The position numbers and the translations under genes are program-made. Shown in pieces: positions 3,114-22,777 of a stretch of DNA of 64,000 nt. The stretch comes from Halorhabdus sp. CBA1104 (lineage in GTDB: Archaea; Halobacteriota; Halobacteria; Halobacteriales; Haloarculaceae), in NCBI RefSeq assembly GCF_009690625.1, contig NZ_CP033878.1, positions 310,001 to 374,000 on the forward strand, written 5' to 3'. Numbering within the stretch: the first letter of the stretch is position 1; every line of letters starts with the position of its first letter. Below the pieces are notes generated by a model that was not told where the DNA came from, ran no database searches, and was given only the letters and a program-made list of their open reading frames with translations.

Positions 3114-5552
3114 TCACTCCTGGCTGCCACCGTCGGCTGCGGTGTCCTGTGTCTCGGATGTCTCGGGTCCGGACTCGGGACCAGACGCCTCGAGGGTGAA
3201 CTGTTCGACCGCATCGCGCAGGCCACTCGAACGGTCGGCCAGGGCCTGGATCTGTTCGCTGACTTCCGTGATCGAAGCGGTCTGCTCTTCGGCGGCCGCC
3301 GAGACCGACTCGGCCTCTTGGGCAGTCTGTTCGCTGATCGAACCTACGTCGTCCATCATTGCGACGACCTGCTCCGTGGAATCGGCCTGGTCGTCGGTGG
3401 CATCGTTGATCGACTGGACGCCCGTATCGGCGTCCTCGACCTGTTCGACGAGCTGTTCGAGAAGCTGGACGGCATCTTCGACGGCGTCGATCCCGTCGGT
3501 GACGCTCTCGCCCATCTCGTGCATGTCACCGACGACGTGGTCGGTCGTCTCTTGGACTTCTTGGATCCGTTGCTCGATGTCCTGGGTCGCCTCGGCTGTC
3601 TCCTGGGCCAGCCCCTTGATCTCGTCGGCGACGACGGCAAAGCCCTCGCCAGCCTCGCCGGCCCGGGCGGCCTCGATCGAGGCGTTCAGCGCCAGCATGT
3701 TCGTCTGGTCGGCGATGTCGTCGATCAAGCCGGCGATCTCGCCGATCTCTTCCATGGCGCTTTCGAGGCGTTCGACCTCTGTGATCGTCGTCTCGGCCTG
3801 GGACTCGACGGCGTCCATCTCTCCGAGGGCGTCCGACCCGAGTTCGCTTGCCGTTTCACCGAGGTCGGCTGCCTGTCGGGACTTCTGTGCGACTCCCTCT
3901 GCCGAGGAGGCGACCTCCTCGATCGCGGCGCTGAGATCGGTCAGCTCGTCGGTGGCGTCTTGGACGGTTTCGTCCTGGCGATCTGCCCCCTCGGCGATGT
4001 CTTGGACCGATTCGCTGACGTCCTCGCTGACCCGGCGTACTTCGCTGGCGCTCGCAGCGACGTCTTCCGCTGACGCGTCGACGTCCTCCGCGAAGGCACG
4101 CACCTCCTGTAGCGTCTGTTCGAGTTCCATCAGCATCTCGTTGGCTGCGACGGCGATCGCACGCATCGCGTCGTCGTCGACGTCCTCGTCGAGCCGCTGG
4201 GTAAGATCGCCGTCGGCTGCCTCGGCCATGACCGTGCTGAACTCGTCGGCCTGTTGTTGTAGCGATTCGGCCATGGCTTGGGCCTCTTGTTTCGAGGCCT
4301 GGGCTTGCTCTCTGGCGGATTCGATCTCTTCGATTGACGCTTGGAGGTCCTCTTGCATCGTTTCGAGCGATGCCCCGAGTTCTCCCGGGACTCGCTCGTC
4401 GAGCGCCGGATCGTCGAAATCCTGGCGTGCCAGAGCGTCAGCCTGCGATGCGACCGTCCGTAGATAGTTCGTCGTCTCCCGAAATGCGTCTCTGACTTGT
4501 CCGATTTCGTCGATCCGTCCTTCGTCTTGGACGGCAATGTCCAGGTCTCCCTCGGCGATCGCGGACGCCTGCTCGCCGACGGTCGCAATACGCGGAATGA
4601 CGTCTCGGCCGACGTAGACGGCGAGGACGACTAAGCCGAGGAGTGCCGCTCCAATGAGGCCAATGAGGTGTGTCTGGACCGTATTTTTCAGCGCGTACGC
4701 GTTCGCGGTTGGGACGCTCTTGACCACGACCCAATCGGTGCCGTTGACCGGCGCGTAGGCGACCAATTCATCGCCCCGATTCAAGATACCACTCGTATTA
4801 GCGCCCCGCTGTAACGCCGTCGCGTTGGCACCGCCCGGATACTGGTCGAAGACCTGACTCTCGTTTGAGGGGATCATCACCGATCCCGACGTCGAGACAA
4901 CTTCTGTGGTTCCGCCTTCGATGACGTTCTGGAACTGTTGGCTCCGGGCGTCGAGATCGTAGGCCATAACCACTCCGTGCGTGAAGCTTTGTGTCGGGCT
5001 GGAAAACGCGAGCAGCGAGCGATTGTCGACCGTGTACACCTCTTTGGTGCCTGCGGTATCACGATCGAGCCCCAATAGCCCATCCCCGCTCGATGTCGTC
5101 CCCCACCGCAGGTTTTGGGATTCAAGCGACGTATTTTCGAGTCCGTCGACGCTGCTGTCGCGGATCAGTCGCTTTGGAACATTGACGTAGTGCACTGCGA
5201 CGAGACTCTCCCCGCCGTTCAGTTTTGCGCGTTGGAGGGCGATGTTTACCATCCCCGAATCCGAGTCTCCGGACGCGATCGCCGGGTCTTTCGACAGTGA
5301 GTCCGCTGCTTCCTGTTTCTGTTCGAGCCACTGTTGGACGTTGTCGGCTGTCCGCTCGGTGGCCGCCTGCAACTGATCGTTCCGGTTTTCGGTAAGCTCT
5401 GCCGAGACCGTTTGTTGGGTAAAGATCCCGATCCCTAGGACGACCAGGCCAACGACTACCACCACGAGCAAGAACTTTCGAAGGTACCGTCGTCTGATCG
5501 TATCCGGTAACAACTGTTCAAACCGTGCCAGCAGTCCCGAGGCGTCACTCAT
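3114..5552 (-). CDS. Membrane chemoreceptor (Htr-type methyl-accepting transducer)
   Basis: An 812-aa transducer starting at MSDASGLL (an ATG 15 nt upstream is possible). TM1 spans about residues 26-46. An extracellular sensor of about 240 aa with a double-Cache look follows, then TM2 at about 295-318, HAMP, and a long cytoplasmic coiled coil rich in Ala, Glu and Gln. The signalling hairpin tip reads [20 protein letters not shown], the hallmark of MCP signalling domains that contact CheA/CheW. Methylation-type Glu/Gln pairs flank it. The ligand is unknown. The gene is isolated from che genes and sits, unusually, inside the nusA-rpsL interval on the opposite strand. Confidence 0.93.
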
Positions 5553-5725: not shown

Positions 5726-6154
5726 ATGGCAAACGGCAAGTACGCCGCACGCAAACTCAAGAAGGACCGCCAGCAACACCGGTGGTCCGACTCCGACTAC
5801 GCTCGCCGCGAACGCGGGCTCGGAGCCAAGTCCGATCCGCTCGAAGGAGCACCGCAGGGTCGCGGGATCGTCCTAGAGAAAGTCGGTATCGAGGCCAAAC
5901 AGCCCAACTCTGCGATCCGAAAGTGTGTTCGGGTCCAGCTCATCAAGAACGGCAAACAGGTCACGGCCTTCTGTCCTGGTGACGGCGCTATCTCGTTCAT
6001 CGACGAACACGACGAGGTCACCATCGCCGGCATCGGCGGTGCAAAGGGTCGTGCGATGGGCGACCTCTCCGGAGTCAACTACAAGGTCGAGAAAGTCAAC
6101 GGCGTCTCGATGATCGAACTGGTTCGCGGTAACGCCGAGAAACCGGTGCGATAA
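5726..6154 (+). CDS. rpsL: 30S ribosomal protein S12 (uS12)
   Basis: A 142-aa archaeal/eukaryotic-type uS12 of the decoding centre. The universally conserved loop [20 protein letters not shown] (about residues 54-73) and the [14 protein letters not shown] region are intact. Length and sequence are standard for haloarchaea. It is followed after 2 nt by rpsG, forming the str operon core. EF-2 (fusA) does not follow in this window. Confidence 0.98.
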
Positions 6155-6156
6155 CC

Positions 6157-6759
6157 ATGAGTGCCGAGACTGATTCCGATTCCGAGGACGCCGAAAGCAC
6201 GACTGGTGCGAAGCTGTTCGGTCGTTGGGCCACCGACGAGATCGAGTTCCAGGATCCGTCGACCGAACGGTACATCACGATTACGCCGATCGCCCACACG
6301 ATGGGCCGTCACGCCACCAAGCAGTTCCAGAAGTCCGAGATCTCGATCGTCGAACGGTTGATCAACCGTCTCATGCAGACCGACGAGAACACGGGCAAGA
6401 AACAGCAGACGACTCGGATGGTCCGTGAGGCCTTCGAGATCGTTCACGAGCGAACTGACGAGAACCCGATCCAGATCCTCGTCGGTGCGATCGAGCACAG
6501 TGCGCCACGCGAAGAGACGGTCCGCCTGAAATACGGTGGCATCTCGGTGCCCAAAGCTGTCGACATCTCCCCGCAGCGTCGGGTCGACCAGGCACTGAAG
6601 TTCCTCGCTGAAGGCGTCTACAACGACTCCTTCAAGACGCCGACCGATGCCGAAGAAGCCCTCGCCCAGCAACTCGTGGGCGCTGCCGACAACGATGTCG
6701 GGACCTACGCCGTCAACCAGAAAGAAGAGAAAGAGCGCGTCGCGGCAGCAGCTCGGTAA
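6157..6759 (+). CDS. rpsG: 30S ribosomal protein S7 (uS7)
   Basis: A 200-aa archaeal uS7 with an acidic N-terminal extension typical of halophiles. It nucleates assembly of the 30S head. The recognisable block KQQTTRMVREAFEIVHERTD (about residues 80-100) and the C-terminal LAQQLVGAADND region are present. It is coupled to rpsL (2-nt gap). After its stop comes a T-rich stretch (cgttttctcg, about 6769-6778) that could terminate transcription. The next gene, rpl15e, is convergent. Confidence 0.98.
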   Translation: MSAETDSDSEDAESTTGAKLFGRWATDEIEFQDPSTERYITITPIAHTMGRHATKQFQKSEISIVERLINRLMQTDENTGKKQQTTRMVREAFEIVHERTDENPIQILVGAIEHSAPREETVRLKYGGISVPKAVDISPQRRVDQALKFLAEGVYNDSFKTPTDAEEALAQQLVGAADNDVGTYAVNQKEEKERVAAAAR

Positions 6760-6873
6760 TCTCTCTCGTTTTCTCGATCGTTGCTTTGGTCGCTTCGATT
6801 TCGCTCCTGTCCAGTCTCAACTCCCAGAATAGCCTCTGGACGTATGTCGAACCGAAAGAGAATCGTCGCGTCG

Positions 6874-7464
6874 CTACTTCGCGCGACCGCTGTCGCCGCG
6901 ATTGCTGGGACGTGTGTGTTCGGCGCCTTTTCCGCGAACGTTCAGGCCCCGGTTGCGCTGTCCGGCGCTCGTGAGGCCGCGCAGCGCACGGTCGGCCTGT
7001 GAGTCGTCACAGATCCAGTTGAGATCGTCGTCGTTTTCGATCGCCGGATGATCGGGATCGACGAGAATCGCTTCGAACCACTTCTGGCTGCCGTCCTCGC
7101 CGACCCAGTAGGAATTGAGGACGCGCAGGTTGCGATACTTCTTGGTCGCGCGTTCTTCGGCCACGCGCTGGAGGTTCTTCCGGCGGGTGATCCGCGTGAC
7201 GCCTTGTCGCTTCGAGCGCCGACCCGCTTTGTGTCGCTGTTTGCGCGCACTGCCTTTCCGGACACTGATCCGTGCCACGACGATCCCCTGTTTTGCTTTG
7301 TACCCGAGCGAGCGTGCCCGGTCGAGTCGCGTCGGTCGCTCGACGCGTTCGATGGCGCCTTGCTCGCGCCACTCTTGCATGCGTTGCCACTGGAGTTCGG
7401 CCAGCTTGCCGTCGTCCGGATCTTTCCAGGCGTCTCGGATGTGTGAATAGAAGCTTCGTGCCAT
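6874..7464 (-). CDS. rpl15e: 50S ribosomal protein L15e (eL15)
   Basis: A 196-aa archaeal/eukaryotic ribosomal protein starting at MARSFYSHIRDAWKDPDD. The core GYKAKQGIVVARISVRKG and the basic RRSKRQGVTRITRRKN segment, plus LRVLNSYWVGEDGSQKWFE, are diagnostic of eL15, which binds 23S rRNA. An upstream in-frame ATG would add 15 residues with no family support, so it was not used. It is monocistronic and converges with rpsG. Confidence 0.97.
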   Translation of the reverse strand: MARSFYSHIRDAWKDPDDGKLAELQWQRMQEWREQGAIERVERPTRLDRARSLGYKAKQGIVVARISVRKGSARKQRHKAGRRSKRQGVTRITRRKNLQRVAEERATKKYRNLRVLNSYWVGEDGSQKWFEAILVDPDHPAIENDDDLNWICDDSQADRALRGLTSAGQRNRGLNVRGKGAEHTRPSNRGDSGRAK

Positions 7465-11167: not shown

Positions 11168-11821
11168 TCAGTGTACGTCTCCGCGAACAGTGACGCCACG
11201 CTCGCGTTCGCGTTGCTCGCCCAGCGTCTGTGCGGCCGTCGCGGCCTGTTGCTCGTCGGCCCCCAGCTGCTTGAGGGCCTCGGCGAGGGTGGGAAAGACG
11301 TACTCCCCTGTCCGGAGTTTTTCGAGTGCCTCTGACGATCGCGTCCCTTCGTGCCAGAGACAGACGCCGCGTGGATCGAGGATCTCCTCGTAGCTCCCGC
11401 GGGCGAGTGCGCCTTCGAGTCGTCGAGTGACGTTATCCTCGAAGGAAGCGTTGCAGACTTCCAGATGGACCGGCTCGCCTGCTTCAGTCAGGTGGGCGGC
11501 GAGACATTGCTCGGGTGCGACGTGGCCGCTGGCGGCGGCTGCAATTTCGTCCGGGTGGTCACGAGCCCACTCCGTCCGGACGGTTTCGCCGATGCCCTCG
11601 ACGCCCAACTTCTCGTTCAACGCCGTCGCTTCCGCGTTGGCCTGCCCGAACAGCAGGTCCTTCGTGAGGTAGACGTCGAGTCGCTCGACGGGATCGAGGC
11701 CCAGCGCCAGATCGCCGTAGACCCAGACTTCACGAACGGGAACCGGCATCGTCTCCTGTTCGACTGCCTCGAGGATGCCTTCGAGGCGGTCGACAGCTAC
11801 GTCGCGATCGAAATCGCTCAT
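11168..11821 (-). CDS. Conserved haloarchaeal protein of unknown function
   Basis: A 217-aa acidic cytoplasmic protein with start MSDFDRDVAVDRLEGILEAV. No catalytic motif is recognised. The segment VWVYGDLALGLDPVERLDVYLTK slightly recalls a minimal nucleotidyltransferase-like strand-loop (GDLALG...D.Y), but the family's GS motif is absent. The C-terminal third is helical and Ala/Gln-rich. It converges with the methyltransferase gene and diverges from the hydrolase gene (85-nt gap). Confidence 0.75.
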   Translation of the reverse strand: MSDFDRDVAVDRLEGILEAVEQETMPVPVREVWVYGDLALGLDPVERLDVYLTKDLLFGQANAEATALNEKLGVEGIGETVRTEWARDHPDEIAAAASGHVAPEQCLAAHLTEAGEPVHLEVCNASFEDNVTRRLEGALARGSYEEILDPRGVCLWHEGTRSSEALEKLRTGEYVFPTLAEALKQLGADEQQAATAAQTLGEQRERERGVTVRGDVH

Positions 11822-11906
11822 CGACCACCTTCGGGCCGGGATGGACAAAACGGTTTCCGGTCGTTGCGGGGGTTTGATTTTTCCGCCGCGGGTGACAACG
11901 CCCGCC

Positions 11907-12608
11907 ATGGAGTTCGACCGCTTTGGCGACGAACGCCACCCGGATCTGTTGTTCGTCCTGGGCTGGGGGAACCGGCCGACCCACGAGCCCGTGCGCTGGT
12001 TGCTCGACCGACTCGCCGAGGACTGGCGAGTCCACACAGCGACGCTGCCGGTCCACGCCACCGACGTCCAACGTGAGTGGGTCGATCCCGTCTCGGCGTA
12101 TGCCGCCGCCCTCACGAACCCCGCCGTGCTGGCTCACAGCGCCGGTGGGCTTACCGTCGCCCACGCGGACATCGAGTCTTCGACGACGACGTATCTCAGT
12201 CCGTGGTGGGGGTTCTCCTCGGCGAATGGGGGACGCCTGGTGGACTTATTTGCTCGGTTCCCACTCGACGTGAAGTTGCTGCCCAGCGGGATCGACGATC
12301 CGTCGTTGCTCGGTGCTCACGCTACCGCGCGACAGGTTACCGAGGGGGCCGATCGCGTCTCGCCAGCTTTTCTCCGGACAGTCCAACAGGCTCACCGGAC
12401 CCTTCCGCCCGCCAAAGACGAGGCCGTCGTCTTCTGCTCGCTGACCGATCAGGTCGTCTCGACGCGAGCGATCGGCGAGCGCGTCCCGGCCGAGCGGATC
12501 CGCCTCTACGACGGCGGCCACGAACTGTTCTCCTCACGATCGCGTGAGCGACAGCTCGCCACACTGCGTGCAGTGCTGTCCGAGGGGCCGGCCGGGCTGG
12601 AAGCGTAA
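11907..12608 (+). CDS. Alpha/beta hydrolase
   Basis: A 233-aa alpha/beta-hydrolase fold protein. The nucleophile elbow is AVLAHSAGGLTVAH (Ser near residue 75), the acid is likely Asp in VFCSLTDQVVST, and the catalytic His is in LYDGGHELFSS. The oxyanion region LLFVLGWGNRPTHE is at the N-terminus. Substrate unknown. The start at 11907 was chosen because the family-like core begins immediately after it; the longer in-frame reading overlaps the divergent gene. Confidence 0.82.
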   Translation: MEFDRFGDERHPDLLFVLGWGNRPTHEPVRWLLDRLAEDWRVHTATLPVHATDVQREWVDPVSAYAAALTNPAVLAHSAGGLTVAHADIESSTTTYLSPWWGFSSANGGRLVDLFARFPLDVKLLPSGIDDPSLLGAHATARQVTEGADRVSPAFLRTVQQAHRTLPPAKDEAVVFCSLTDQVVSTRAIGERVPAERIRLYDGGHELFSSRSRERQLATLRAVLSEGPAGLEA

Positions 12609-12641
12609 TCCTCTCGGGTGCGTATCTCCGAGAGCCAGTGA

Positions 12642-13598
12642 ATGGACTGTGATCGGTGTGGCGAGGCGGCGGTCATGCATGCGGCCTACTCCGGGGCCCA
12701 TCTCTGTGAGGACCACTTCCGGCGCTCCGTCGAGAAGCGTGTTCGCCGTCGGATTCGTGAGGACGGCATCGTTCCCGAACGGGCCACGCCGGAGGAACCC
12801 GTCACCTGGCTGATCGGCCTCTCGGGTGGGAAAGATAGCGTCGTCCTCACGCAGATCCTCGCCGAGACTTTCGCCGAGGATCCCCGGATCGAACTCGTCG
12901 CGCTGTCGATCCACGAGGGGATCGAGGGCTACCGCGACGAGAGTCTCGACGCCGCTGAGTCACTCACTGCTGATCTTGGGCTCCGTCACGAGACGATATC
13001 CTACGCCGATGAGTTCGGCGTTCGTATGGACGAGGTCGTCGAAGACGATCCCGAAGACATGGCTGCTTGTGCGTACTGTGGCGTCTTCCGACGCGATCTG
13101 CTCTCGACGTACGCCGAGGAGTACAACGCCGATCTCCTGTTGACCGGCCACAACCTCGACGACGAAGCCGAGACAGCGCTGATGAACTTCCTCGAAGGCG
13201 ACATCGCCCAGATGGCAAAACACTTCGACGCAAGCCTCGGCCCGCTCGACGAGCGAACGTTGACCGATCGGCACGTCCCACGGGCGAAACCACTCCGAGA
13301 TGTCCCCGAAAAGGAGGTCGCGCTGTATGCCCGCCTCCGGGATCTCCCGGCACACATCACCGAGTGTCCACACGCCTCAGAGTCGTTTCGCGGTGAGATA
13401 CAGTCACTGTTGTACGAACTCGAAGACGCCCATCCGGGGACGCGCCACTCGATCATGGCCGGATACGAACAGCTGGCCAGGCAGGCGGCCCGGACTGTCG
13501 ACGAAGACCGAGACTACGCGTCGTGTGACACGTGCGGACGACCGACGACCGGAGAGCGGTGCCGACGCTGCCAGCTGCTGGATGCGTTGGGTGCCTGA
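12642..13598 (+). CDS. ncsA: tRNA 2-thiolation enzyme NcsA (Ctu1-type)
   Basis: A 318-aa TtuA/Ncs6-family protein that adenylates tRNA U34 for 2-thiolation, using a ubiquitin-like SAMP sulphur carrier in haloarchaea. It has an N-terminal zinc finger (CDRCGEAAVMHAAYSGAHLC), the PP-loop LIGLSGGKDSVVL, the catalytic-Cys region CAYCGVFRRDLL, and GHNLDDEAETALMNFLEGD. The C-terminal zinc ribbon is CDTCGRPTTGERCRRCQ. Length is typical. It converges with ftsZ. Confidence 0.93.
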   Translation: MDCDRCGEAAVMHAAYSGAHLCEDHFRRSVEKRVRRRIREDGIVPERATPEEPVTWLIGLSGGKDSVVLTQILAETFAEDPRIELVALSIHEGIEGYRDESLDAAESLTADLGLRHETISYADEFGVRMDEVVEDDPEDMAACAYCGVFRRDLLSTYAEEYNADLLLTGHNLDDEAETALMNFLEGDIAQMAKHFDASLGPLDERTLTDRHVPRAKPLRDVPEKEVALYARLRDLPAHITECPHASESFRGEIQSLLYELEDAHPGTRHSIMAGYEQLARQAARTVDEDRDYASCDTCGRPTTGERCRRCQLLDALGA

Positions 13599-15964: not shown

Positions 15965-16038
15965 CCGCCCTTAGCTCAGACTGGTAGAGCAGTCGACTGT
16001 AGATCGACTTGCCCCCCGTTCAAATCGGGGAGGGCGGA
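15965..16038 (+). tRNA. tRNA-Tyr (GUA)
   Basis: A 74-nt tRNA without intron. The acceptor CCGCCCT (15965-15971) pairs with AGGGCGG (16031-16037), with discriminator A at 16038. The anticodon arm is GTCGA-CTGTAGA-TCGAC, giving anticodon GTA. The T arm is CCCCG-TTCAAAT-CGGGG. CCA is not encoded. Its 3' end is the left attachment site of the integrated element, which keeps the tRNA intact. Confidence 0.97.
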
Positions 16039-16041
16039 CTT
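16026..16041 (+). repeat. Left attachment repeat (attL) in the tRNA-Tyr 3' end
   Basis: CGGGGAGGGCGGACTT covers the 3' half of the T stem, the acceptor strand and three bases beyond the tRNA. An identical copy is at 22762-22777. Confidence 0.9.
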
Positions 16042-16119: not shown

Positions 16120-16215
16120 TGGCGAAATCGGCCCGATTTGGTGAGTTGAACGGGTCTCAAGTTGGGGGTCCGTGCCGTCTCCCGGATTTCGTAGCTGAAA
16201 CCGGGGGTGGTGGGC

Positions 16216-16449
16216 GTGAGTAAGTCCGATCCGGAGACGGCCGACGCGGACGCCGAGATGGCGGTGCGGAATCGGTCGCAGTACGCGGACACGCTCCACC
16301 GCCCGGACCCGGATTCCGACGAGCCAGAACCAGCGTGTCCGGTCTGCTACGACGACAGGGCCGACTATACGCTGGTTCCGGTCAATGCCTACCGCCCGCA
16401 CTACGACCTGTGCGGCTACCCGCAGTGCTTCGGGGGTGAGGACCGTTGA
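16216..16449 (+). CDS. Small acidic Cys-rich element protein
   Basis: A 77-aa protein of the element's first operon. The GTG at 16216 (MSKSDPETADAD) is chosen; GTGs at 16207 and 16210 are also in frame, after a G-rich stretch. The C-terminal part has CPVCYDDRADYTLVPV and YDLCGYPQCFGG, two Cys pairs that could bind one zinc. Not assignable to a named family. Its stop overlaps the next TTG start by 4 nt. Confidence 0.7.
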   Translation: MSKSDPETADADAEMAVRNRSQYADTLHRPDPDSDEPEPACPVCYDDRADYTLVPVNAYRPHYDLCGYPQCFGGEDR

Positions 16450-16655
16450 CGGGCGCACAGACGACGCTGTTCCACTATGAAGAGGACTTGTCGGCCCTCA
16501 CGCCGGCCGAGCGAGACGCCTACGAAGCCGTCGAGATCGAGGACTACGGCGTTCGTGAGTTCGCCCGCAAGACCGGGCGGAAACCCGGAACGGTCGGGAA
16601 CCTACTGAGTCGAGCGCGCCAGAAGGTCGGAGGTGAGGAACATGCAGGTTCCTGA
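16446..16655 (+). CDS. Small helix-turn-helix (sigma-70 region 4-like) protein
   Basis: A 69-aa protein starting at TTG 16446, overlapping the previous stop. Residues 18-58 (LTPAERDAYEAVEIEDYGVREFARKTG...GTVGNLLSRARQKVGG) form a region-4-like HTH of the kind common in haloviral and plasmid genes. It is probably a DNA-binding regulator of the element. The 3' end overlaps the next small gene by 14 nt. Confidence 0.75.
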   Translation: MTGAQTTLFHYEEDLSALTPAERDAYEAVEIEDYGVREFARKTGRKPGTVGNLLSRARQKVGGEEHAGS

Positions 16656-16746
16656 GTTCGTCCCCGCCTCGGACCTGTACGATGTTGAACGGGGCGAGCG
16701 AGTCCCTCACACCTGGCCTAAAGGCGAAGGGGGTGAGCCGTCGTGA
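16642..16746 (+). CDS. 34-aa element microprotein
   Basis: ATG 16642 to TGA 16744-16746, protein beginning MQVPEFVPASDLYDVERGER. It is preceded by GGAGGTGAGGAA, a good Shine-Dalgarno, and overlaps both neighbours (14 nt upstream, 4 nt GTGA downstream). That makes it a likely translated coupling cistron. No family recognised; the function may be only translational coupling or a small partner of the 538-aa protein. Confidence 0.55.
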   Translation: MQVPEFVPASDLYDVERGERVPHTWPKGEGGEPS

Positions 16747-18359
16747 AGACGGTCACGCTCGCGTATCACGAGTTTGACGCGAATCTTCTTTATTCTGACG
16801 ACGGACTCGCGGCGTTCTTCGCGGCGGATTCCGCGGTCAAAGAGGGTCAAGGGTCACAATCCGCGAAATTCAGCGCCGAAGGTGAACAGTGGCGCGCCCG
16901 CCTGTCCTACCAGGATAGTAACATCGTTCACCCCGGCGAGACGACGCCTCTCGGCACTGAGTGGCGACTTGAGACCATGCGGGAGTACCGGATCAAAGTG
17001 TACCGTGATCCGCAAGAGGACCCGATCGGGCAACAGGAGTTCGTCGGCCATATCGCACCTCGGTGGCCGGGGATGCAAGGCGAGAAGTCGGACGGGAGCC
17101 GCGTCGAGATCCCCGTTCCTGAGGGATTCGGCGAGGGCATCAACGTCCGGGTGCAGGGCTCGAATATCGCCTTCGATCGCTACCCCGATCTCCTCGCCCG
17201 TGCGGGAGCCGCGCTCGGCATCGCCGGGCGATACTTCCGCGAGCCACACCCGATGACGAACATTCAGGACGCCGAGCGGTACGCTCGAATCCATCGGGAC
17301 GCGAGCGGGCCCGTCCACGCGAGGGACGGCCCGATCGCCTCGATGGGCCACCTCCTCGAAGACGACCGGGCGGGCTACCGCAAAGTGGTACAGAACGATG
17401 ACGACGAACACGGGCGAAACCTACCAGGGTACTATCACACGGTGACGCTCGGCGAGCGCCGTGTCCGTGAAGCGTTCCCCGATCACCGACTGCCCAAAGA
17501 GGTGAAGCACTATTACGCCCGGGAAGCCGAAGCGCTCGACGAGGACAACCCACTCGCCCATCCGAAGGTGGGTGCATCGCTCCAGGTGTCGCGCCTGGAT
17601 GACGACGAGACGGTCCGCTGGCGTGACCTTGACCGCCTTGAGCGAGAGTTAGATCAAACTGTCCTGTCGGTGCTGGCAGATGCCGGGATCGACGTTGCGC
17701 CGAGCGGTGGCGGCCCGTTCTTCGAGGATGCGTATTTCACTCCGGAGGTAGACGAGAGCGGCCCGGACCCGGTGGGCCTGGATTTGACTCGCGTCCGACA
17801 GTCCCAGGAGAGTGTCGTTGTGCGACACCTCGCCGATGGACTCCGGCCGACACAGTGGGACGCCCTGGAGACGCTGGTAACAGACGGTGGCGAGGTCGCT
17901 CCGGCGGATATCGCCCATGACCATGACCGCCACGTTGAGAGCGTGCGCGCCGCTCTGCGGGACATGGAAGATTTGGTTCACAGGGAGTACGCGAATGTGT
18001 CCCTTCGGAGTGAGTACGTCGCCGAGCTTGTCCACGACGCGGTGGCCGAGGCACGCGAGTCGGTGAAGCGTGCGGCGGAGACGACGGCGAAGGCGATGGA
18101 AGCGGCGGAGCGGGGGATGGGCGAGACCATGAGCACGTTCATCGCCTGGGCCGCCCGGCACGGCGTCGACGTATCTGACGCCCGTGACGCCCGCCTGACG
18201 CTCCGTTTTGACGATCACACCGATGCGGGGCAGGCGATCCGTGAGGGGTTCCGCGTGTGGAAAGACGCCGGACTCCCCGAAGAGCGCTACCGCCAGGCGA
18301 AAGTACGCTTCGCCGACGGAAGCCGCGGTGACGCCTGGCGTTGGCTCACGCCTGGGTAG
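16743..18359 (+). CDS. Large winged-helix element protein (candidate replication/regulatory hub)
   Basis: A 538-aa protein starting GTG 16743, overlapping the preceding stop. Residues 1-330 hold no motif I recognise. Residues about 363-430 (RPTQWDALETLVTDGG...ESVRAALRDMEDLVHREYANV) form a MarR-like winged helix. Residues 430-465 are a long Ala/Glu helix. Proteins of this size and layout are found in haloarchaeal plasmids and proviruses, often annotated as MarR-like or of unknown function. A replication-initiation role is an inference from its being the only large core gene besides the integrase. A strong hairpin follows the stop. Confidence 0.75.
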   Translation: MKTVTLAYHEFDANLLYSDDGLAAFFAADSAVKEGQGSQSAKFSAEGEQWRARLSYQDSNIVHPGETTPLGTEWRLETMREYRIKVYRDPQEDPIGQQEFVGHIAPRWPGMQGEKSDGSRVEIPVPEGFGEGINVRVQGSNIAFDRYPDLLARAGAALGIAGRYFREPHPMTNIQDAERYARIHRDASGPVHARDGPIASMGHLLEDDRAGYRKVVQNDDDEHGRNLPGYYHTVTLGERRVREAFPDHRLPKEVKHYYAREAEALDEDNPLAHPKVGASLQVSRLDDDETVRWRDLDRLERELDQTVLSVLADAGIDVAPSGGGPFFEDAYFTPEVDESGPDPVGLDLTRVRQSQESVVVRHLADGLRPTQWDALETLVTDGGEVAPADIAHDHDRHVESVRAALRDMEDLVHREYANVSLRSEYVAELVHDAVAEARESVKRAAETTAKAMEAAERGMGETMSTFIAWAARHGVDVSDARDARLTLRFDDHTDAGQAIREGFRVWKDAGLPEERYRQAKVRFADGSRGDAWRWLTPG

Positions 18360-18399: not shown

Positions 18400-18712
18400 G
18401 TAGTGGCAACGCTCGCTCACGTTGGTGATTTTGGCGACTTATACAAACCGGATTGTGCTCAACCAGCTGTGTATTACAACTCTACTTGTCTTTCTGGAAC
18501 GCACCGAGTGGCGCGCCGGGACGATCGGCCCGAGAGAACCCAACCCCAGGGGTTCGGTTCTCGCTTAGGGGTGTGGCTAAGGCCACTTCTCCAAAACACA
18601 CCGCCTGCGGTTGCGGAGATCAAGCCGAAACGGGCCCCTTGCGGGTCGCGCGAAATGATCTTGCATTCATTTCACCATTAAAGACTTGTATCGGTAACAT
18701 CTCTATGTTGCT
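18400..18712. other. Non-coding stretch with promoter-like box and two stem-loops
   Basis: No convincing ORF. A TATA-like TTATACAAA lies at 18439-18447. About 95 nt downstream is a compound hairpin: GAGAACC (18534-18540), CCCCAGGGG (18544-18552), GGTTCTC (18556-18562). A second hairpin GTGGC-taag-GCCAC (18572-18585) follows. The last 60 nt before the cargo gene become AT-rich (tttcaccattaaagacttgta), where its promoter probably lies. Candidate non-coding RNA or replication-origin structure. Confidence 0.4.
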
Positions 18713-19597
18713 ATGACAGAATTCTTCGGTCGCCAGTTCTCCAATATAGACAAAGCGCACCTTCGTGATCTACATAATCTTGAGATGGAAGGATGCGTAT
18801 ATACACAACTTTGGCGTGATGAAGTGGAAAAGTTTGGATTTTGTCGGATACGATTTGAACCAGATGAAATTGTGAAATATGTCGATTCTCTACATGGATA
18901 CGATGAATTCCTAGGCTACGTTCATGATGGCTATGAGAAAGAAGAAGCTTTAGAGAAAATATCAGATGAACGTGTAAAATCCACAGCCAGGGAGTATGCA
19001 GAATGGGCTAAAGGAGAAGAGGAAGCCGCAAATCCATACTGTCCTGCTGCATTCTTTCTAGAACACTTAGAGGATCTTCTTTGTGGAGGAATGCCTGATA
19101 GATACGAGTTTATGCAAGAATCATATACTGGTGATCGGCGGTTCTTATTATCTGAGATATTTGAGGGATTCTCAAACTCTTTATCAATTCTTCAAGATAG
19201 AGACGGTGATCGCCCCGACTTTGAGCTTACTTGTGAAACAGATTTTCAGGATCTGCTCTACGCAATCATGAAGCCAATTTTTCCAGATGCAAGGCCTGAA
19301 GAATACACTCCTAAGCATGGGACAAATTCAAAGAGAATTGACTTTGTAATCCCTGAAATATCAACAGTAATTGAAGCGAAATATGTTCGAGATAGTAGTC
19401 ACGCAAATAAGATACCTGAGGAATTAAAGGTCGATATCGAGAGCTATCATGCACATACAGATTGTCAGCGTATGTATGGGTTAGTATGGGATGCCGATTC
19501 CTATATTACAGATGTGGAAAACTTTGAGAAAGATCTAACAGGTCCTAGAACTATAGATGGAAATGAATTCCAAGTTGAAGTGAAGGTATTGCCCTGA
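18713..19597 (+). CDS. PD-(D/E)XK nuclease-fold protein, DpnII/MboI-type C-terminal domain
   Basis: A 294-aa protein. The C-terminal half (about 172-280) matches the restriction-endonuclease-fold domain named after DpnII/MboI. It has TDFQDLLYAIMKPIF, RPEEYTPKHGTNSKRIDFVI and the catalytic core D210...E221-A-K223 (VIEAKYVRDS), then a helix VDIESYHAHTDC and GLVWDAD. The N-terminal 165 residues form an unassigned domain, probably for sensing or specificity. No methyltransferase partner is nearby. The gene is clearly AT-rich with A/T-ending codons, unlike its neighbours, so it was recently acquired. Such domains are frequent in anti-phage defence genes. A defence role is inferred. Confidence 0.85.
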   Translation: MTEFFGRQFSNIDKAHLRDLHNLEMEGCVYTQLWRDEVEKFGFCRIRFEPDEIVKYVDSLHGYDEFLGYVHDGYEKEEALEKISDERVKSTAREYAEWAKGEEEAANPYCPAAFFLEHLEDLLCGGMPDRYEFMQESYTGDRRFLLSEIFEGFSNSLSILQDRDGDRPDFELTCETDFQDLLYAIMKPIFPDARPEEYTPKHGTNSKRIDFVIPEISTVIEAKYVRDSSHANKIPEELKVDIESYHAHTDCQRMYGLVWDADSYITDVENFEKDLTGPRTIDGNEFQVEVKVLP

Positions 19598-19725
19598 TTC
19601 ACTACCCGCGCGTCATATATATCGTCTCCTCTCGCTGGTCATGCGGCCTACGTCCATCTCTTCGTACACCTGGAGGTCATGGTCATGGACAGCCGGCAAT
19701 CGCCTCGCGGTCACTCAGTTAGTCC

Positions 19726-20046
19726 TTACACTTTGTCCACGGTGTCCCGGTGATCGCTGTCTTTCCATTCTCCCCACCAATCGCTAACCCAGGACTTGCC
19801 ATCTCGGGCGAATTGGGCCGTCTTACCTGATATCCGTCTATTCTGTTTGCACCGGATGACTGTCCACGGCGCGACGCTGCAGGCGACCGATTCCAGCCCG
19901 AGCTTATCATCTCTGTCCGACCCCTGGGGTTCACACGTAGAGAAATACGCTCCTCTCGATATGCACACGAGTTGCTCGTGAGCGTGTGCATATTTGGCGG
20001 CTGCCGGGCCGGTCGGGGTGGGTGTCCGGTGTGATCTGGCCGTCAT
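19726..20046 (-). CDS. Doubtful 106-aa ORF in the element
   Basis: An open frame from ATG 20046 (MTARSHRTPTPTGPAAAKY). Its C-terminal half looks protein-like (VAPWTVIRCKQNRRISG, WVSDWWGEWKDSDHR), but it has no family match I can recognise and no clear ribosome site. An 11-bp inverted repeat (19959-19993) lies inside it and a TATA-like box only 10 nt upstream. It may be a real small gene, a decayed gene or chance. The rest of 19598-20200 shows no other gene. Confidence 0.3.
   Translation of the reverse strand: MTARSHRTPTPTGPAAAKYAHAHEQLVCISRGAYFSTCEPQGSDRDDKLGLESVACSVAPWTVIRCKQNRRISGKTAQFARDGKSWVSDWWGEWKDSDHRDTVDKV
19959..19993. repeat. 11-bp inverted repeat
   Basis: ATATGCACACG (19959-19969) and CGTGTGCATAT (19983-19993), perfect arms, 13-nt spacer. 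This is among the strongest inverted repeats in the element. It lies in the poorly coding 600-bp interval between the cargo gene and the minus-strand operon. Possible origin, Rep/repressor site or terminator. Confidence 0.55.
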
Positions 20047-20200: not shown

Positions 20201-20299
20201 CTATTCGTCGTCTTCGAGCGCCTCGTCAAGAGCGTCCCGTACCTTCTCGAAGTGCTCGCCGATGCGGTCGGGCATCTCCTCAAGCTCGTCGTCGCTCAC
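20201..20299 (-). CDS. 32-aa acidic element microprotein
   Basis: GTG 20299-20297 to TAG 20203-20201, protein beginning MSDDELEEMPDRIGEHFEKV and ending in EDDE. It starts inside the stop of the upstream 124-aa gene (4-nt GTGA overlap), so it is almost certainly translated by coupling. It is predicted to be a single amphipathic helix. Function unknown; it may partner the 124-aa protein. Confidence 0.6.
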   Translation of the reverse strand: MSDDELEEMPDRIGEHFEKVRDALDEALEDDE

Positions 20300-20670
20300 A
20301 GGTTGCTCCCGTTTTTGATGTCGTGCCATTGCTCGAACCTCTTGATGTATTGTTGGACGTTCTCACGTAAGTCGTCTTCGGCGTAATCGAACCCCTCGGT
20401 AGCCGGAATCGGGCCCGTGACGTCTTTCACGTCGACTTTCTCACCGTCTCGATAGATGTCCATGTGAAGCCCTTCGGCGGCGATATCGTGGCCGCCTTCT
20501 GCGTCTCGGTCATGGTCATACCGGACGACGGGTTTCCAGTCGCCACTGTGCCAGTATTCGAGTTGTACCATGAACCGGACGACTTCGCCCTGTTCGGTCG
20601 TGAAAGCGGTCCGGATCTGTACTTTCTCCGCGATACGATCCGGCGGCGGGGTGACTTCGTAGTCTTGCAC
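20296..20670 (-). CDS. Conserved element protein of unknown function
   Basis: A 124-aa protein, MQDYEVTPPPDRIAEKVQIR at the start. The middle region (EYWHSGDWKPVVRYDHDRDA, GGHDIAAEGLHMDIYRDG) is a conserved haloarchaeal module often found on mobile elements next to wHTH genes. A beta-rich fold with several conserved His/Asp residues is suggested, but no catalytic assignment is possible. It is separated by 6 nt from the upstream HTH gene and overlaps the 32-aa gene downstream: a three-gene minus-strand operon. Confidence 0.75.
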   Translation of the reverse strand: MQDYEVTPPPDRIAEKVQIRTAFTTEQGEVVRFMVQLEYWHSGDWKPVVRYDHDRDAEGGHDIAAEGLHMDIYRDGEKVDVKDVTGPIPATEGFDYAEDDLRENVQQYIKRFEQWHDIKNGSNL

Positions 20671-20676
20671 AGTTGC

Positions 20677-20943
20677 TCACTTCTGTTCCAGTTGCAGTTC
20701 GTCGGTGTCAAGATCGCCTACGAGATACTGCTTCCCCTTCTCTGTGATCCGATAGATCCCTTCTTTCTCTTTTTCGACAAGACCCCCCTCTATGAGAACC
20801 GCGAGCCGTTCACTCACGTAGTGACGTGAATAGTTGGTATTGACAGCTAAAACCCGAGGAGAAAGTATCAAACCAGAATCTTCGAGGGTTTCAAGTAGAC
20901 GGTCATCTGCCTGAGTCATCCACGAAACCCTCGGTCTGCGCAT
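20677..20943 (-). CDS. PhiH1-repressor-like winged-helix protein
   Basis: An 88-aa winged helix: WMTQADDRLLETLEDSGLIL, NYSRHYVSERLAVLIEGGLV (recognition helix) and GIYRITEKGKQYLVGDLD (wing). This matches the small haloarchaeal regulators related to the repressor of halophage PhiH. It heads a minus-strand operon divergent from the integrase operon, the classical place for a lysogeny-type repressor. The palindrome TAACGTACGTTA (21019-21030) beside the divergent promoter is its most likely operator. Confidence 0.82.
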   Translation of the reverse strand: MRRPRVSWMTQADDRLLETLEDSGLILSPRVLAVNTNYSRHYVSERLAVLIEGGLVEKEKEGIYRITEKGKQYLVGDLDTDELQLEQK

Positions 20944-21300: not shown

Positions 21301-21567
21301 ATGTCCGATGATGAGATGATGGCAACGGTCCGGATCGAAGACCGGACCGATCGATGGCGTTTCACCTGCCCGAATGGTCACCGCAGTTGGGAGCCCACCA
21401 ATCACCACTTCTGGTGCGCGAAGTGTGCGCGCCAGGACGGCGTTGACGGCGCGTTTCACAACCTCCGCGATCGCCGCGACGGGGAACTCTTGCCCCGCAA
21501 GGAAGTGCGCCTGTTGACGCCGGTCGGTCCGTATGACTGTGACCTTGACCGGAGGGGTTCGGCGTGA
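21301..21567 (+). CDS. Small zinc-finger element protein
   Basis: An 88-aa protein starting MSDDEMMATVRIEDRTDRWR. The CPNGHRSWEPTNHHFWCAKC motif (about residues 24-43) gives a C-x-x-x-H/C-x-x-C zinc site. It is typical of small genes preceding integrases in haloarchaeal proviruses. The longer in-frame reading upstream overlaps the leader structure and is unlikely. It overlaps the next GTG by 4 nt. Confidence 0.72.
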   Translation: MSDDEMMATVRIEDRTDRWRFTCPNGHRSWEPTNHHFWCAKCARQDGVDGAFHNLRDRRDGELLPRKEVRLLTPVGPYDCDLDRRGSA

Positions 21568-21665
21568 TCTGTCCCGAGTGCGAGAGCAACCGGGTGCGGC
21601 CCTCCGGAGGATGCCCGTACTGTCCTGAATGTGGCTGGTCCAAATGCGGGGGGAGTCGCGCGTGA
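21564..21665 (+). CDS. 33-aa zinc-ribbon microprotein
   Basis: GTG 21564 to TGA 21663-21665. The sequence has CPECESN and CPYCPECGWSKCGG, i.e. two CxxC knuckles and extra cysteines. It overlaps the upstream stop (4 nt) and the integrase GTG start (4 nt), so it sits in a tightly coupled three-gene operon. Short rubredoxin-like zinc microproteins of this type accompany haloarchaeal integrases; the role is unknown. Confidence 0.65.
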   Translation: MICPECESNRVRPSGGCPYCPECGWSKCGGSRA

Positions 21666-22705
21666 GCGCCGACTTAGAGCCGCTGTCTCCCTCCAAGGCA
21701 CTGGACCTGTATCTCGAGTCCCGCGACGACGCGGCGGAGCAAACCCTTGACGGGCAGAAGTACCGTCTGCGGGCGTTCGTCGCGTGGTGTGACGAGGAGG
21801 GGATCGCAAACCTGAACGAGCTGTCCGGCCGGGACCTGTACGCCTATCGCGTGTGGCGTCGTGAGGGCGGCTATTCGGGTGACGAGTTGAAGACGGTGAC
21901 ACTCCGGGGCGACATGGCGACGCTCCGGGCGTTCCTCCGGTTCTGCGGAGAGGTTGACGCCGTTCGTGAGGAGTTGTTTGATCAGGTTCCACTCCCCCGG
22001 ATGGACGGGTCCCAGGACGTGAGCGATAGCACGCTCGACCCGGACCGTGCCGTCGAGATCGTGGATTACCTGGAACGGTACGAGTACGCGAGTCGTCGCC
22101 ACGTCATCGTACTGCTACTGTGGCACACTGGGTGCCGGGTCGGAGCGCTCCGGTCGCTCGACCTCGGCGACGTGGACTTAGAGGGCCAGCGCCCCAGAGC
22201 CGACGGACCGGCGGTTCACTTCGTCCACCGCCCGGAGAAGGGGACCCCGCTCAAGAACGGAGAGAAAAGCGAGCGGTGGAACGCGATTAGCGGCCACGTT
22301 GCTCAGGTTCTTGACGATTACATTCAGGGTCCGCGGGAGGGTGTCACCGACGAGTATGGGCGCGCCCCGCTCGTGACGACCCGGAACGGCCGGGTCTCAG
22401 TGTCCGCTTGTCGAGATACCTTGTACCGGGTTTCACGCCCGTGTTGGCGTGGTGAGGGTTGCCCCCATGACCGTGACCCGACGGAGTGCGAGGCCGCCCA
22501 CTACTCGCAAATGAGTACGTGCCCGTCGGCCCGCTCTCCCCACGACGTCCGGAGCGGTCGAGTGACGGCGCACAGACTCGCTGACGAGGATCGTTCTCTC
22601 GTATCCGATCGGATGGACGCGAGTGAGGACATCCTGGATAAGCACTACGACCGGCGGAGCAAGCGACAGAAAGCGGAGCAACGACGGAGGTTCTTCGAGC
22701 TATGA
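21662..22705 (+). CDS. Tyrosine-type site-specific recombinase (integrase)
   Basis: A 347-aa integrase starting GTG 21662. The N-terminal SAM-like core-binding domain spans about residues 10-105. In the catalytic domain, Arg I is in LLLWHTGCRVGALRSLDL. The box II H-x-x-R region is in SPHDVRSGRVTAHRLAD. The C-terminal EDILDKHYDRRSKRQKAEQR carries the nucleophilic Tyr. It lies 57 bp from the right attachment repeat and presumably catalyses recombination at the tRNA-Tyr 3' end. Intact, so excision may be possible. Confidence 0.93.
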   Translation: MSADLEPLSPSKALDLYLESRDDAAEQTLDGQKYRLRAFVAWCDEEGIANLNELSGRDLYAYRVWRREGGYSGDELKTVTLRGDMATLRAFLRFCGEVDAVREELFDQVPLPRMDGSQDVSDSTLDPDRAVEIVDYLERYEYASRRHVIVLLLWHTGCRVGALRSLDLGDVDLEGQRPRADGPAVHFVHRPEKGTPLKNGEKSERWNAISGHVAQVLDDYIQGPREGVTDEYGRAPLVTTRNGRVSVSACRDTLYRVSRPCWRGEGCPHDRDPTECEAAHYSQMSTCPSARSPHDVRSGRVTAHRLADEDRSLVSDRMDASEDILDKHYDRRSKRQKAEQRRRFFEL

Positions 22706-22761: not shown

Positions 22762-22777
22762 CGGGGAGGGCGGACTT
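22762..22777 (+). repeat. Right attachment repeat (attR)
   Basis: CGGGGAGGGCGGACTT, identical to 16026-16041, just after the integrase gene. It marks the right boundary; the chromosome resumes here with 146 bp before the next gene's 3' end. Confidence 0.9.

Follow-up and report, generated by a model that had tools for sequence, protein, structure and literature searches.

A 294-residue protein encoded in the genome of Halorhabdus sp. CBA1104 belongs to a known nuclease family and has a new architecture, with a C-terminal PF18742 (DpnII-MboI) domain behind an N-terminal domain of about 145 residues, and its gene is carried by a small element integrated in a tRNA gene. The reading that we favor, with slightly more confidence than doubt and drawing on three full-length homologs only, is that of a single-protein antiviral or anti-mobile-element nuclease, the exchangeable cargo of a virion-less betapleolipovirus derivative, in which the C-terminal domain would destroy DNA and the N-terminal domain would restrain this activity and release it on an infection cue. 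The window, that is, the whole stretch of 64,000 nucleotides that was analyzed (contig NZ_CP033878.1, positions 310,001 to 374,000), contains the entire element, and the coordinates of its features are collected in Table 1.

Table 1. Features of the integrated element and of its nuclease gene (window coordinates)
Feature	Position	Strand	Remarks
tRNA-Tyr, integration target	15965..16039	+
attL, 16-bp direct repeat, tRNA 3' end	16026..16041	+
80-aa small protein, replication operon	16207..16449	+	71% to HHPV4
69-aa sigma-region-4-like helix-turn-helix protein	16446..16655	+	68% to Harhisp1
DUF7845 protein, Rep-Arvir rolling-circle replication initiator	16743..18359	+	73% to Harhisp1
Betapleolipovirus replication origin, conserved	18534..18604	+	Inverted repeat 18534-18562; hairpin core TGTGGCTAAGGCCA 18572-18585
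Exchanged cargo slot	18656..19921		Backbone homology to sister element ends at 18655 and resumes at 19922
Two-domain nuclease gene, 294 aa	18713..19597	+	ATG start; intact ORF
N-terminal domain, residues 1-145	18713..19147	+	Without family match; only in three haloarchaeal proteins
C-terminal PF18742 (DpnII-MboI) nuclease domain, residues 146-292	19148..19588	+
Catalytic signature D210...E221-A-K223	19340..19381	+	Aligned to EcbAgaN D298/E309/K311
Palindrome TATGCACACG-13-CGTGTGCATA	19960..19992		Flanks cargo slot; kept in related proviruses and HHPV4
DUF7718 protein, backbone gene	20296..20670	-	Common to sister element
Winged-helix regulator (repressor)	20677..20943	-	PHROG 2440; 47% to SNJ2 regulator
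Zinc-finger-like protein, upstream of integrase	21301..21567	+	72% in provirus L078
SNJ2-type tyrosine integrase, intact ORF	21629..22705	+	62-63% to HHPV4 and SNJ2
attR, identical 16-bp repeat, just past integrase	22762..22777	+

A virus-derived element with an exchanged cargo gene

The element measures 6.75 kb between its 16-bp att repeats in tRNA-Tyr. Near-empty sites occur in congeners, as illustrated by one of them (G144) in which the tRNA is ~240 bp from the chromosomal flank, versus 6.8 kb here. In congeners (L055, L058, and L060), the last 22 bp of the tRNA-Tyr recur about 130-155 bp downstream, as if they were att copies left by past integrations. DUF7845 proteins, one of which is encoded in the element, were recently demonstrated to act as Rep-Arvir rolling-circle replication initiators; to replicate, SNJ2 needs ORF19 together with a downstream origin in which an inverted repeat is combined with a conserved hairpin (PMC13107129). 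Both the inverted repeat and the hairpin core of the element could be aligned with those of SNJ2, HHPV4, Harhisp1, and several proviruses, and of 200 shuffles of the 76-nt origin stretch, 196 fold less well than the original. The nuclease gene starts ~110 bp past this conserved block. Genes for the spike, the internal membrane protein, and the NTPase, which are present in related full proviruses, were found neither between the origin and the regulator nor in the sister element described below. Judging from this gene content, the element is best described as a virion-less betapleolipovirus derivative, which may still be able to excise and replicate. It resembles the pL6-family plasmids and the ~6.5-kb tRNA-linked integrative plasmids of haloarchaea in its size of about 6 kb, its virus-type replicase, and the lack of a spike gene, the integrated ones being also flanked by a tRNA and an integrase; those plasmids differ, however, in host groups and gene content, and the integrated ones have a replicase of alphapleolipovirus type (PMC11431627). 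Among 391 Halobacteria genomes, 72 have a gene for a DUF7718 protein, for the most part in other contexts; none was found in the three pleolipoviruses compared. We discarded this gene as a marker of such mini-elements, as none of 12 further loci had a Rep-Arvir gene with the origin hairpin and only two had a related integrase.

A sister species (G318) carries the same element in the same tRNA-Tyr, with 82-90% DNA identity, but its slot holds another AT-rich gene, frameshifted, for a DUF4238 protein (Pfam, 1.7e-18 and 6.3e-19 for the two pieces; PADLOC model DUF4238-Pers, 5.8e-4), DUF4238 being a PADLOC candidate family. The original prediction, made from the sequence of the window alone, had described the nuclease gene as cargo, and this exchange of slot contents within a conserved backbone agrees with it. 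In the sister element (L071, reverse complement, 3441-4329 and 6142-7151), the DUF4238 cargo and the integrase are both frameshifted, so that this copy looks immobile and decaying. The GC content of the nuclease gene is 39.9%, versus 61.6% for the remainder of its element, a contrast that had been taken as a sign of recent transfer. The contrast holds, but low GC is a family-wide trait (44-45% in the homologs and 38-47% in most other haloarchaeal PF18742 genes); it therefore marks the gene as accessory and is no proof of recent transfer for the present copy. A scan with a bacterial sigma-70 promoter model, which is unsuited to archaea, gave no excess over shuffles, and a search for structured RNAs returned tRNA and nothing further.

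The C-terminal nuclease domain

A Pfam profile search matched residues 146-292 to PF18742 with an E value of 1.6e-34 and 119.1 bits, the curated cut-off of the family being 27 bits, and the best sequence matches to known systems fall in the same domain. Three PADLOC models of the Argonaute-associated 'Helical-REase' nuclease matched the nuclease domain only (Aga_Helical-REase, 9e-28), and EcbAgaN was the sole relevant solved structure retrieved by sequence from the PDB, with a value of 6e-6 for the single sequence that changed to 1.9e-17 when a 13-sequence family profile was used as query. In the alignment, D210, E221, and K223 correspond to EcbAgaN D298, E309, and K311, whose mutation abolished DNase activity (PMC10620215). 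Every invariant column of the 13-sequence haloarchaeal alignment lies inside the nuclease domain (L160, E175, D177, Q179, F190, R194, E196, R208, D210, E221, K223, D241, Y245, D260, and V290), and E175, D177, Q179, R194, E196, R208, D210, E221, K223, D241, and Y245 are invariant also in an alignment of ten sequences from viral contigs. The DpnII/MboI-type nuclease and the PD-(D/E)XK core D210...E221-A-K223 of the original prediction were thus both recovered by these searches.

A structure model built from two sequences had a pLDDT of 37, and one built from ten sequences resolved the nuclease domain only: its nuclease core is mostly confident, with pLDDT values mostly of 80-92 from residue 211 onward, and outside this domain the N-terminal values are mostly below 50 except for residues 55-100. 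The top structural alignments (VIA) of the nuclease-domain model were mostly with proteins of the restriction-endonuclease fold, including BstYI, BglII, BamHI, McrC, EcoRV, Card1, Can2, Avs4, and Shedu, at Z values of 5-7 that are supporting rather than decisive, a Z of 8 being the level that stands alone in this method; the best of them, BstYI (Z 7.0, rmsd 5.0, 133 aligned), is below that threshold. A Foldseek search of the model against the PDB gave no match with an E value below 0.001. The nuclease assignment therefore stands because of the profile and alignment evidence, which places the C-terminal domain, far beyond chance, in the PF18742 family of PD-(D/E)XK nucleases; it presumably acts as a DNase.

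The closest characterized relative is bAgaN (EcbAgaN) of the BPAN long-B Argonaute system (PMC10620215; PDB 23wq). This enzyme shows little selectivity in cleaving DNA, whether single- or double-stranded, and, once its Argonaute detects an invader, it degrades the genome and kills the cell, causing abortive infection (PMC10620215). The two proteins have in common the C-terminal PD-(D/E)XK domain, the D-(10)-E-x-K spacing, the surrounding motifs, and the two-domain layout. By contrast, the present gene is solitary, without an Argonaute partner, and lies in a virus-derived element, and its N-terminal domain is shorter and has no detectable similarity to that of bAgaN, the PADLOC and PDB matches covering the nuclease domain only.

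The N-terminal domain and the full-length homologs

Residues 1-145 matched no Pfam, PADLOC, or PHROG family, the sole PHROG match of the protein being its C-terminal domain, and the full protein matched no NCBIfam model. The front part of the protein had been predicted to resemble nothing recognizable, and it kept this status against the defense-gene models of PADLOC. Full-length relatives were found in three of the 391 Halobacteria genomes, the present one included. The closest is that of Haloarchaeobius iranensis, with 75% identity, and the third (49%) is from a member of the family to which the organism of the window belongs. Searches of plasmids, phage records, and IMG/VR contigs gave no relative of the N-terminal domain. 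The one marginal match in a 375-genome archaeal sample (residues 29-142, E=5.7e-4), in the first 150 residues of an archaeal protein (L111, 952-1950, minus strand) and ahead of an ATPase-like domain, was not trusted, its hhalign probability being 29%, and may be due to chance. Between the present gene and its H. iranensis homolog, dN is 0.23 in the N-terminal half and 0.11 in the nuclease half and dS is saturated, indicating that the gene is constrained and that its N-terminal half changes about twofold faster. Other haloarchaeal PF18742 proteins bear different N-termini and most are encoded by AT-rich genes among unrelated genes, which implies that the nuclease is a module combined with varied front domains.

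The H. iranensis homolog adjoins a copy of the palindrome block, and the same contig region has a full betapleolipovirus set (NTPase, spike, VP1, and integrase). The third homolog belongs to a different element, with tRNA-Ala, 32-bp att repeats, and an SNJ2-type integrase. What the three neighborhoods have in common is the nuclease gene and integrases, the palindrome block being present in two only, and we found no partner gene common to all three, which favors a single-gene system. The DUF7718 protein and the regulator were considered as obligatory partner or antitoxin and rejected, as both are kept in the sister element with other cargo and neither is common to the two other homolog contexts.

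Possible modes of action

We found no Argonaute (Piwi-domain gene) in the genome, and the simplest reading is hence that detection or restraint falls to the fused N-terminal domain. In the mechanism that we propose, the C-terminal domain, the same module as in the long-B Argonaute effector bAgaN, would be the DNA-destroying part, cutting DNA in a way most likely not confined to one short sequence, and the N-terminal domain would serve as an infection sensor that keeps the nuclease inactive until an infection cue releases or directs it; the outcome would be abortive infection or the exclusion of competing viruses. The top PADLOC and PDB matches, all Argonaute-associated nucleases, could instead point to an effector of a prokaryotic Argonaute system with the Argonaute encoded elsewhere. 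We regard this as extremely improbable and rejected an Argonaute-linked system in a genome without a Piwi gene: among 16 genomes with a PF18742-type nuclease, only three have a Piwi gene, in no case near the nuclease gene, and the match to the Argonaute-associated proteins is confined to the nuclease domain.

Restriction-modification of the common kind fares no better. The original prediction had stated that no methyltransferase accompanies the gene and that it is not an ordinary restriction-modification enzyme; indeed, the element has no methyltransferase gene of any kind, no D12/Dam methyltransferase was found in the genome by a search that did recover D12 enzymes from control genomes, and GATC, as an indirect indication, shows no depletion, with counts at expectation both in the window (636 observed, 641 expected) and in the element (44 observed, 45 expected). 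Together with the lack of an Argonaute, these results argue against a pAgo partner system as well as against ordinary DpnII-type restriction-modification, and we rejected ordinary type II restriction-modification on the two latter grounds. An orphan DpnII/MboI-type enzyme cutting GATC, with its protecting methyltransferase encoded elsewhere, is very unlikely for the same reasons, although the name of the Pfam family and a D12 adenine methyltransferase gene ~1.2 kb from the H. iranensis homolog (L033, 2321-3241) might suggest it. That methyltransferase gene lies in the same provirus region as the homolog in divergent orientation, with other ORFs between them, and neither of the other two homologs was found to have a D12 gene next to it. 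Within the PF18742 family, to which its full-domain match is far above the cut-off, the present protein is peculiar in that its N-terminal domain is known from three proteins only, it has no accompanying methyltransferase, and nothing points to GATC specificity.

Single-protein modification-dependent (type IV-like) restriction, in which the N-terminal domain would read modified or foreign DNA and the nuclease would cut the incoming genome without suicide, is unlikely in our opinion but accommodates some of the same evidence: a partner methyltransferase is absent, and the need for modified sites would spare the unmodified host genome without any methyltransferase. It also has a precedent in HHPV4, which encodes HHPV4I, a Gm6ATC-dependent single-protein endonuclease. 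However, no known reader domain (SRA, EVE, YTH, or other Pfam family) was detected in residues 1-145, and a characterized member of the nuclease family is non-specific and suicidal. The m6A-dependent HHPV4I, which its discoverers interpreted as excluding other viruses (PMC10101028), is similar to the present protein as a stand-alone multidomain nuclease encoded in a betapleolipovirus accessory region (PMC10101028), but it has an SRA-wH-HNH organization unrelated in sequence and fold.

A role in the service of the element itself (replication, excision, or host DNA scavenging) or in addiction, rather than in antiviral defense, appears distinctly improbable. The gene is located directly after the replication origin, and related viruses have toxin-antitoxin genes, both of which would fit such a role; nevertheless, the replication and integration module is the same in the sister element, where the nuclease gene is missing, SNJ2 depends for its replication on ORF19 and the element downstream of it, and the homologs are found on different backbones with no common antitoxin-like neighbor.

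Accessory genes in related proviruses

The antiviral reading that we prefer draws on the genes found at corresponding positions of related elements. In full proviruses, the structural operon is located between the origin and the conserved palindrome, and accessory genes occur on both sides of this operon. In a full provirus of the same genus (G050), the gene that immediately follows the origin encodes a TIR protein (PADLOC ThsB-type, 7e-18) and one shortly before the palindrome encodes a dGTPase (4.6e-93); the two genes are AT-rich (L073, reverse complement, 4280-5212 and 11741-13105, respectively). In proviruses of other genera, the accessory slots contain a cytosine methyltransferase with restriction-type neighbors (type II restriction-modification), McrB and McrC, an ApeA-type HEPN protein, a DUF6602/NucC-like nuclease, and a weak dGTPase-like HD protein. 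At least one recognizable defense-type gene is present in six of the 11 full proviruses examined, a count to be read as a lead and not as a measured enrichment, since the first ten slot genes scanned were chosen by eye and no PADLOC model matched 24 other slot genes of related proviruses. The latter also imply that the slots do not hold recognized defense genes exclusively. As a lead, an interchangeable accessory slot in betapleolipovirus-type elements, often with antiviral-type genes, is the more interesting point than the protein itself. This context strengthens the original hypothesis of a single-gene anti-phage system, in which the defense role itself is something that we infer.

More tentatively, and with more doubt than confidence, we propose that a genus-spanning antiviral hotspot, arranged around the origin, the structural operon, and the palindrome, exists in betapleolipovirus-type proviruses and their virion-less derivatives, and that the present gene is a new one-protein system within it, with an N-terminal sensor controlling a bAgaN-type DNase without Argonaute. 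As part of this proposal, the element without virion genes could be a mobile satellite instead of a dead remnant. We found no earlier description of such a hotspot in the open-licence papers searched. A parallel is offered by P2 phages and P4 satellites with their antiviral hotspots (PMC9122126), as these too are small viral-type mobile elements in which a slot bounded by conserved genes carries defense-type genes that can be exchanged; in contrast, the present element is archaeal, has a betapleolipovirus backbone and no known helper virus, and its defense role is presumptive. If these proposals are true, the bAgaN nuclease module would not be confined to Argonaute systems but would also function when fused directly to other sensors, and haloarchaeal proviruses would have a compact site in which to find further antiviral gene candidates. 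Both claims are directly testable in haloarchaea, thanks to their tractable genetics and a growing virus collection.

Other genes of the PF18742 family

Another AT-rich haloarchaeal PF18742 gene (L036, 6425-9603) has, at a distance of ~1 kb, an integrase-like gene whose start sequence is of SNJ2 type, and PF18742 nucleases may therefore ride repeatedly on elements with SNJ2-type integrases. PF18742-type nucleases also occur in about 200 plasmid records, mostly enterobacterial. One of them, on an IncX1 plasmid (L099, 3662-4456), is annotated as 'malate dehydrogenase' and one on another plasmid as 'transposase', labels that look like misannotations. In two viral contigs (L093, 4800-5916, and L095, 4677-6025), the gene for a PF18742-type nuclease precedes a small gene whose sequence is hydrophobic and of membrane type, which suggests a two-gene arrangement.
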